Of a DNA stretch of 64,000 nucleotides, positions 7,000-54,493 are shown piece after piece. The position numbers and the translations under genes were made by a program. Position 1 is the stretch's first letter; each line of letters begins with the position of its first letter. The DNA is from Thermoproteota archaeon (GTDB taxonomy: Archaea > Thermoproteota > Thermoprotei_A > Sulfolobales > NBVN01). The stretch is taken from contig JAUQPH010000005.1 of assembly GCA_030550455.1 (NCBI GenBank), positions 62,001-126,000 of the forward strand, read 5' to 3'. The notes beneath the pieces were generated by a model. That model was not told where the DNA came from and did not search any database. It saw only the letters and a program-made list of their open reading frames with translations.

Positions 7000-7542
7000 T
7001 TAGGAAGAGTGTTTGTCGCTACATAAGCGGTCGAAGAACTTAAACCTGTTCTCCCCGCTTTTAGTAATACACCAAACGAAATCTCCCTCGATCTCTAGGA
7101 GCTTCATTATTAGCTCTTTAACGTATTCAAGGTCGATGTGACTTACTACTACCCCAGCTCCGGACTCAGAACATACTGTCTTCTGCAAACCATATCTACA
7201 CCTTAATTCTCCTCGGCAGTAAACACACTGAACATCGATGTAACCTGGTAATAATCCTATGTAGTAACCCTGAGAGACCTCAAAGTAGGTGCACCCTCGG
7301 GGAATGTTGTGCGGAAGACCTTTCGAAATTTTAACACCACTAATTATGCACTCCCAGGGTTCCTTCTCTACTTCAGTTTGGCATAAACGGTTGATTAAGT
7401 CTACTACAGTCTTGTTAACGCATGCCTCTACGTAGATAAAAGCTATGATTCCAGAACTACAGCAGCTTATTACAACGTTAGCTACACTAGTCGGTCGTTC
7501 CTGAGTACTCATTACCGACATACACCACTCTTTCGAGTTCAA
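7000..7542 (-). CDS. Cys-rich hypothetical protein
   Basis: No family recognised. The 180-aa product has fourteen cysteines, including VQCVYCRGELRC in the middle (C-x2-C-x5-C, zinc-ribbon-like), an early SCCSSG, and isolated cysteines elsewhere. The C-terminal part (HIDLEYVKELIMKLLEIEGDF) is probably helical. No signal peptide or clear membrane span. Start is uncertain: ATG codons at residues 1, 8 and 11 compete. It is isolated, with about 100 bases to dnaG downstream and 800 bases of non-coding DNA upstream, so context gives no functional hint. Confidence 0.5.
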   Translation of the reverse strand: MNSKEWCMSVMSTQERPTSVANVVISCCSSGIIAFIYVEACVNKTVVDLINRLCQTEVEKEPWECIISGVKISKGLPHNIPRGCTYFEVSQGYYIGLLPGYIDVQCVYCRGELRCRYGLQKTVCSESGAGVVVSHIDLEYVKELIMKLLEIEGDFVWCITKSGENRFKFFDRLCSDKHSS

Positions 7543-8344
7543 CTACCTCTATCTCACCTACTAACTAGGGGATAATAGCTGCTTATTTGAATATTCACCA
7601 CCGAGATCTCATATACTCTATGAAGGAGTTTATGAGACTCGAGAGTCGTGTTGAAAATGCTTCAGGGAACGTTAAGAACCACTCTAAGAGTCCAGTAGTA
7701 ACTCACGTAATTAGGCCTACGACAGTCCTCAAGGCTTTAGCATAGAGTTACTTATGTCCGCATATAACCGCTAACTCGAGGAAGAATCACCTCAGCAGGA
7801 GCTGTAACATAATGCGAGAGAAAGTCATAAGTAGCCGAAATCAGTAGGGTTTGCTATTGAGATTCAGTGCTTCAAGGACGGAAACCCAAATAAGCAGTGA
7901 CGAGCCGCTGAGGCTAATACTCGAGAACCCATAGCAACAACGCTCTATAAATAGCCGCAGCAATTGAGTGAGTTAAACTAGTTAATGAGGGCTCGTAACT
8001 GCTTTAGTGTATTAGGTTAAAGGTTTTGTAGGACTTTTTCACGATGATGGGAGGTACTTTGAGACACCTAGAGGTAGAGTCTAGATGTGGGCCCCGTGCT
8101 GTTGGGCTCGAGCGGTGCCCATGACTCCTGCGTAGAGTAGCTAGTAGCCTCAGTAAACCGCTGGTAGGAGGCACAACTCACCCTAGGAAAACCTACAAAA
8201 CCTAGAGCGAGAAACGGTGAGATGAAGGTGGAGAGCTATTAACATACCTGCACGACACAGCTTACTACTTCGAAACTGCTGATTCTTTTATACTTCTTTA
8301 AGGATTAAATTAGGTATTCAAGCTATAAATACGGGTTTAATGCC
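7543..8344. other. 800-base non-coding stretch with structured-RNA candidate
   Basis: No reading frame of note on either strand; stops are frequent. A good TATA-like box (CTATAAATAG, about 7947-7956) would place a plus-strand start near 7975. The interval 8021-8203 holds strong base-pairing potential, described separately. A pyrimidine-rich tract (about 8281-8298) could end such a transcript. The last 40 bases carry the promoter of the deacylase gene: CTATAAAT (8323-8330). Confidence 0.5.
8021..8203 (+). ncRNA. candidate structured non-coding RNA of unknown class
   Basis: AGGTTTTGTAGG (8021-8032) is perfectly complementary to CCTACAAAACCT (8192-8203), closing 159 bases with a 12-bp helix. 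Inside are further pairings: AGAC/GTCT around ACCT/AGGT (about 8060-8081), TGGGC/GCCCA enclosing CCG-GCT/AGC-GG (about 8085-8123), and CTCCT/AGGAG (about 8127-8170). Just downstream, CTCACC/GGTGAG and CTAGG/CCTAG can form an alternative fold that competes with the closing helix. I looked for SRP RNA, RNase P RNA, 5S and C/D-box hallmarks and found none. A decayed inverted-repeat element is the main alternative. Strand is inferred from the upstream TATA box. Confidence 0.45.
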
Positions 8345-14892: not shown

Positions 14893-14983
14893 TGGGGCCG
14901 CCGGGATTTGAACCCGGGACCACCAGCGTACTGGCGGGGGATGTCCCCAGGCTGGCATCCTAGCCAAGCTAGACGACGGCCCC
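14893..14983 (-). tRNA. tRNA-Pro(GGG) with 16-base intron
   Basis: Acceptor arms GGGGCCG/CGGCCCC pair fully, discriminator A, CCA not encoded. Anticodon stem CCAGC/GCTGG encloses a loop with anticodon GGG. A 16-base intron (14929-14944) interrupts position 37/38; CTGG of the loop pairs with CCAG of the intron and leaves three-base bulges, the bulge-helix-bulge needed by the archaeal splicing endonuclease. T arm CCGGG-TTCAAAT-CCCGG. A TATA box (TATTTTAAG on plus, 15005-15013) lies about 26 bases upstream. Confidence 0.93.
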
Positions 14984-21490: not shown

Positions 21491-21607
21491 GCGGGGGTGC
21501 CCGAGCCAGGTCAAAGGGGTCGGGCTTAAGACCTTTCCGGCAGTAGCTAAAAGTAAGAGACCCGATGGCGTAGGCCTGCGTGGGTTCAAATCCCACCCCC
21601 CGCACCA
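21491..21607 (+). tRNA. tRNA-Leu(TAA) with 29-base intron
   Basis: Acceptor GCGGGGG/CCCCCGC, discriminator A and encoded CCA (21605-21607). Anticodon stem TCGGG/CCCGA encloses loop CTTAAGA after removal of an intron at 21531-21559 (position 37/38). A long variable arm (TGGCGTAGGCC-type) and T arm GTGGG-TTCAAAT-CCCAC identify it as a type II tRNA, consistent with leucine. Confidence 0.95.
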
Positions 21608-21693: not shown

Positions 21694-21782
<89 letters not shown>

Positions 21783-21804
<22 letters not shown>

Positions 21805-54399: not shown

Positions 54400-54493
54400 T
54401 GGTAGCGGGGGGTGGATTTGAACCACCGACCTCGGGGTCTCACAGGGTTATTCCATATGAGCCCCGCGGGCTACCAGGCTACCCCACCCCGCT
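54400..54493 (-). tRNA. initiator tRNA-Met(CAT) with 17-base intron
   Basis: Acceptor AGCGGGG/CCCCGCT with the A1-U72 pair of archaeal initiators, discriminator A and encoded CCA (54400-54402). Anticodon stem CGGGG/CCCCG with consecutive G-C pairs, loop CTCATAA once the intron at 54439-54455 is removed (position 37/38). T arm GGTGG-TTCAAAT-CCACC. A palindromic AGCTTATAAGCT (54529-54540) upstream contains a TATA-like core, somewhat distant. Confidence 0.94.

Follow-up and report, generated by a model that had tools for sequence, protein, structure and literature searches.

The intergenic DNA upstream of dtdA, in the 64,000-nucleotide stretch analysed here (the window), carries a 230-bp element that is almost certainly a protein-less derivative of an IS607 transposon with an omegaRNA scaffold. 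Our preferred reading is that of a solo IS607 omegaRNA element which would be both mobilised and used in trans. We give it a probability of roughly 0.6, with partial credit for the identity of the element included. Direct support comes from multiple copies, a parent element, a preserved RNA structure and the loss of coding capacity. The features are listed in table 1.

The element and its copies

The source genome (G000) is a Sulfolobales-like metagenome-assembled genome (MAG) of 1.65 Mb, 87.8% complete. Window positions 7950-8310 were searched against it and 59 relatives, and at least 11 copies covering about 7988-8218 were found in the source genome. With the 3' part alone as query, about 18 copies spanned all of it, and several further matches covered the tail only. 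These roughly 18 copies of the subtype are 72-98% identical; the closest is found on the same contig at a distance of about 8.5 kb and is inverted relative to the window copy. The aligned copies have sharp boundaries, starting with AGGGYTCG and ending with GGGAAACGG, and their flanks are unrelated. GG is found at both ends in most copies (the right end is AG in a few), and the IS607 crossover is a GG dinucleotide (PMC4058570). An A precedes the left GG in most copies, against 35% A in the window background. The sequence preceding the element (7545-7990) occurs once in the source genome. A search for a nucleotide-exact empty site in the G026 genus, with L032, gave an alignment that reached the upstream gene only. 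The core pattern had no exact match in IMG/VR, and PLSDB gave no match.

An earlier note on this DNA had suggested that multiple copies with target duplications would point to an inverted-repeat element. Many genomic copies do exist, but they are those of an IS607 derivative and not of an element of that kind. A MITE with terminal inverted repeats was likewise rejected, since AGGGYTCG and GGGAAACGG are not inverted repeats and no duplication is evident in the flanks. A coding reading of the window copy was discarded because its tnpB frame is interrupted by in-frame stops.

Table 1. Coordinates of the element, its RNA helices and related loci. Positions without a contig or locus name are those of the window.
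Feature	Position	Strand	Evidence or remark
Whole non-autonomous IS607-derived element (AGGGCTCG...GAGAAACGG)	7988..8217	+	14 full-length copies from two genera, aligned end to end, flanks unrelated
Left end (LE), opening with A-GG (7988-7990), the presumed crossover GG of IS607 after its preferred A	7988..8040	+	73-85% identical to LE of G022:C2 (L037 1094-1155)
Degenerate TATA box of the element's own putative promoter (GGTTAAAGG)	8015..8023	+	Alignment of copies and parent
Internal deletion junction: remnant of tnpA start (ERYFKP-like, ~10 codons) followed by tnpB 3' sequence	8041..8080	+	Frame in sister copies L026/L028 and L037 tnpA start; short weak match
OmegaRNA/reRNA scaffold, homologous to tnpB 3' end of autonomous elements	8081..8217	+	R1 149 bits, E 3.8e-38 (window copy belongs to the R1 seed)
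Helix 1	8088-8094 with 8104-8110	+	Compensatory change in 5/7 pairs
Helix 2	8115-8119 with 8170-8174	+	96.8% of cells paired; one-sided changes only
Helix 3	8127-8132 with 8159-8164	+	Compensatory change in 4/6 pairs; one mismatch in window copy
Helix 4	8137-8142 with 8146-8151	+	Compensatory change in 3/6 pairs
Helix 5, 3' terminal stem	8177-8187 with 8201-8211	+	Compensatory change in 5/11 pairs
GG closing the element, crossover dinucleotide of the right end	8216..8217	+	Conservation ends there in all copies; GG known for IS607
Presumed guide (TGAGATGAAGGTGGAGAGCT), host flank	8218..8237	+	Inferred from TnpB/omegaRNA architecture
Parent, left end	L037 1094-1155
Parent, tnpA	L037 1122-1796		HTH plus Resolvase
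Parent, tnpB	L037 1768-3039
Parent, right end	L037 2917-3055
IS607 tnpA with intact tnpB and divergent omegaRNA subtype (L106, L055)	G000:C3:27816-29569		Only IS607 tnpA found in the assembly
Class-2 solo elements	G000:C4:116516-116677, C5:206641-206802, C5:88579-88743, C11:107476-107639, C16:10783-10945, others		IS607-like ends as in the window element
~370-aa family beside divergent RNA	G022:C1:552646-553890 (L151), G052:C244 (L152), G020:C106 (L153), G015:C71 (L178), L172-L177, L179, L180

Parent element

A complete parent element was found in the relative G022 (contig C2, locus L037), with the order LE, tnpA, tnpB and right-end RNA. Its tnpA encodes a serine recombinase with Resolvase plus HTH_17 domains, and a serine recombinase together with TnpB is the arrangement of IS607. 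The tnpA of the source genome matches NF033518 at 236 bits. Both ends of the window element match those of L037. The solo copies consist of the left end, a remnant resembling the tnpA start (..ERYFKP..) and then the tnpB 3' end. Since ends and gene remnants are as in the G022 parent, the window copy is identified as a non-autonomous IS607 derivative. All 14 full-length copies, from two genera, have the same junction, which is most simply explained by one ancestral deletion event. Membership in the PATEs (IS200/IS605) was considered and rejected, because the parent encodes a serine recombinase and not Y1.

The 138-nt 3' part adjoins or overlaps the tnpB 3' end in four relatives (G022, G056, G007 and G010), and in the first three of these the scaffold homologue overlaps it. 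In all four, a TnpB zinc-ribbon (PF07282) is encoded directly upstream of the homologous RNA on the same strand. A more distant RNA subtype likewise lies directly downstream of a PF07282 zinc-ribbon on the same strand in G051, G057, G002 and G043. The tnpB frame enters the RNA in several relatives, where the RNA encodes the conserved tail PVPLGSxGxHDP.

Structure of the right-end RNA

The RNA lies at the tnpB 3' end, terminates at the right end of the element and has a conserved secondary structure, as is typical of a TnpB omegaRNA (reRNA). The earlier note correctly proposed a structured non-coding RNA for this segment, but the structure and nature that it assigned to the RNA were wrong: the fold is that of a five-helix omegaRNA with 17 compensatory pairs. 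Among 31 right-end RNAs, 90.8% of cells are paired in this fold and 17 of the 35 pairs have changed on both sides, with 55 cells of two-sided change. None of 500 shuffles reached this result, and slid controls gave 6-9 pairs. Shuffles leave relatedness in; most weight therefore rests on the slid controls and on how the five-helix fold compares directly with the 12-bp helix (see below). Compensatory change is still present in 9 of 35 pairs when the 14 same-junction non-coding solos are taken (2 of 500 shuffles). Such changes could be partly older than the loss of tnpB, or could come from recombination with coding copies.

Guide-RNA loci, TnpB genes and proposed mechanism

Covariance model R1 detected 52 loci in the source genome, some low-scoring ones being class-2 elements (see below) matched via a shared 3' stem, while 9 TnpB zinc-ribbons exceed the curated cut-off. 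Only 3 of the 52 loci are preceded by a TnpB zinc-ribbon match of any quality, with an intact ORF in one. This excess recurs in relatives, for example in G003, with 37 RNA loci against 9 zinc-ribbon matches, the RNA-locus and zinc-ribbon counts being taken at E <= 0.001 with rough covariance-model E-values. The locus with the intact ORF is the single IS607 element of the source genome, on contig C3; it encodes a tnpA of 216 aa and a tnpB of 440 aa, and is a candidate trans helper of the solo elements. Its omegaRNA scores 63 bits with R1, against 149 for the window scaffold, itself a member of the R1 seed. Because this omegaRNA subtype is divergent, use of the window scaffold by the C3 TnpB remains putative.

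IS607 TnpBs use right-end RNA guides, and the ISXfa1 scaffold includes the right-flanking nucleotide (PMC10711439). TnpB-driven retention or drive has been published for IS200/605 (PMC11870625). Internal deletion of an IS607 element has left the LE, the first tnpA codons and the tnpB 3' end, which comprises the omegaRNA scaffold and the right end. In the mechanism that we propose, an IS607 serine recombinase acting in trans would move the solo element. The transcript of the element would start at its own weakened promoter or at the TATA box at 7945, and would be an omegaRNA guided by the right flank (from 8218). This omegaRNA would be loaded in trans by a TnpB made elsewhere, which would cut copies of the locus without the element, so that retention of the element would be favored. 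Transcription, trans loading and cleavage are steps that we infer, and active use of the solo omegaRNA by a TnpB in trans has about even odds.

The most serious competitor, which we hold to be somewhat doubtful, is an inert IS607 fossil: a decaying element moved by TnpA only, with an RNA used by no TnpB any more. No intact TnpB of the window subtype was found in the source genome (87.8% complete), as this explanation would have it. The window copy itself shows some decay, its TATA box being shortened relative to the parental TTTATAAAGG and its helix 3 partly altered, whereas compensatory changes persist in the same-junction non-coding copies and the 98%-identical copy 8.5 kb away suggests recent movement. 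Further evidence against a fossil is that the scaffold is kept upstream of the shared ends, although elements without it share these ends.

Class-2 elements and a TnpB-like family without zinc-ribbon

Those elements form a second class in the source genome. Their left end and final ~44 nt are the same as in the window element, but the RNA between these is unrelated and has a TATA box of its own. The sequence common to the two families appears to suffice as transposon ends. Since class-2 elements share the ends but carry another RNA, the window scaffold is not kept merely as a transposase site. Class-2 RNA copies number 13 in G000, 21 in G053 and 11 in G054, two of the latter 11 lying beside a protein of ~370 aa. 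The only protein remnant of this family in G000 is at C5:261536-261681.

In other genomes the class-2 RNA lies next to the gene of a ~370-aa TnpB/Cas12f-like protein, in divergent orientation. This family has the RuvC motifs GVDVN, LENP and LDRHTASAYLIA, and neither a zinc-ribbon nor a CxxC. One member was scanned against Pfam and had no match. The best match of the predicted fold (pLDDT 76) was Cas12f1 (E 4.7e-9), and ISFba1 TnpB was also matched. The conserved RNA beside these genes has a ~68-nt core, and model R2 matches 11 of 12 loci, several of them outside the seed. The family may represent a zinc-less TnpB with a divergently encoded guide RNA. Pairing of the class-2 RNA with the zinc-ribbon TnpB on contig C5 of G000 was rejected, because the two are ~740 nt apart and the zinc-less protein fits better.

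More tentatively, one or a few TnpB-type nucleases may use the solos in trans as dispersed guide RNAs. Two unrelated scaffolds would then have been reduced independently to LE-RNA-RE units, and the guide RNA, not the proteins, would be the unit that spreads. Were solo omegaRNAs to function in trans, TnpB elements would comprise an autonomous nuclease and satellite guide elements, and the excess of guide-RNA loci over TnpB genes in several genomes of the order would be accounted for. They would also offer a natural system for testing whether TnpB aids the persistence of non-autonomous elements.

Relation to known systems

Stand-alone omegaRNA loci act in trans with IscB, where the guide RNA is encoded away from the nuclease gene; the nuclease in that case is IscB and not TnpB. 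IS607 elements with reRNA (ISXfa1, PMC10711439; RAGATH-18 IS607 TnpBs, PMC11061315) resemble the window element in their GG crossover ends, in the combination of tnpA serine recombinase and tnpB (here in the parent), and in a structured right-end RNA running into the host flank as guide. Unlike the RAGATH-18 reRNA, the RNA described here overlaps the coding end of tnpB, and unlike those of both systems the present element resides in a hyperthermophilic archaeon and has lost both genes. Haloarchaeal PATEs (PMC10544981, PMC3119063) are also short non-autonomous derivatives of TnpB-bearing insertion sequences. They derive from IS200/IS605, with IS605-type ends and a Y1 transposase, in contrast to the IS607 serine recombinase ends found here; the 3' part of one PATE is reported to be strongly transcribed (PMC10544981, PMC3119063). 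In haloarchaea, TnpB-type elements that are non-autonomous and have a transcribed 3' end are known under the name of PATEs (PMC10544981). The Sulfolobus MITEs SM1-SM4 and SMN1 (PMC3718332, PMC10969869) belong to the same order and are short, high-copy and non-autonomous, but have terminal inverted repeats, and a guide RNA is not described for them. An IS607-based, protein-less, omegaRNA-bearing crenarchaeal family was not found in the literature searched, which is weak evidence, as coverage of subscription papers was incomplete. In crenarchaea, an unexplained short intergenic segment with RNA structure should be compared with TnpB right ends before it is named a new RNA.

The dtdA locus and the 12-bp helix

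The gene-free interval described in the earlier note was confirmed, there being no convincing gene between a 180-aa ORF (end 7542) and dtdA (start 8345). The dtdA call agrees with synteny in SKW299, a Sulfolobales MAG and the nearest named relative with this locus, where the order dnaG-orf-dtdA-udg is kept. The ORF (7000-7542, minus strand) is of unknown function, lies between dnaG and dtdA and has 53% identity in SKW299. In that genome only ~160 nt separate the orf from dtdA, with no match to R1. A TATA-like CTATAAATA is present at 7945-7953, where a TATA box of the RNA had been proposed, but it is outside the element. Lying 35 nt before it, this box could drive transcription through the element. 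An identical box at 8323-8331 immediately precedes the dtdA start, which would fit a leaderless mRNA for this gene.

The dtdA start follows the element after 127 nt on the same strand, and the guide of the element would equal DNA upstream of dtdA. The insertion might on these grounds have been co-opted as a local dtdA regulator, either as a promoter insertion or, in a TldR-like manner, through a guide RNA that serves a domesticated TnpB. We consider this very unlikely, given the many copies at unrelated loci, the position of the dtdA TATA box outside the element and the lack of the element at this locus in SKW299.

The 12-bp helix first noted in this interval is real: AGGTTTTGTAGG (8021-8032) and CCTACAAAACCT (8192-8203) are exact complements with 159 nt between them. 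As a notable feature it did not hold, since the window has 2 exact 12-bp inverted pairs at most 200 nt apart against 1.2 +/- 1.0 expected from first-order Markov shuffles, which does not exceed chance. Nor does it close a structured RNA, as none of its pairs has a compensatory change among the 14 homologous full-length copies, and its score on the 14 same-junction solo copies was matched by all 500 shuffles. Its right arm falls within the loop and the first three 3'-strand bases of helix 5. Three G026 copies delete most of this loop, and in the alignment the right arm is partly lost in 3 of the 4 G026 copies. The proposed switch pair CTCACC/GGTGAG fails as well, because GGTGAG (8216-8221) has just its first two bases inside the element and is absent from other copies. 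Compared with shuffles, the fold of the 183-nt stretch is only moderately better (z -1.7, 12 of 200 equally good), and that of 7970-8300 is no better (z +0.2). Rfam gave no match at the gathering score, and below it chance matches only. Although the helix exists and is part of the single-sequence minimum-energy fold, an independent structured RNA or riboswitch-like switch closed by it is most improbable, in view of a repeat at chance level, the lack of compensatory pairs against a competing covarying structure, three copies with part of the right arm deleted, the mobility of the region and an alternative pair that requires host flank. The helix has no part in the mechanism of the solo omegaRNA element proposed above.

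Elsewhere in the window, tRNA matches of 91-114 bases, suggesting introns or long variable arms, are found at 14893-14983, 21491-21604, 21694-21801 and 54403-54493.
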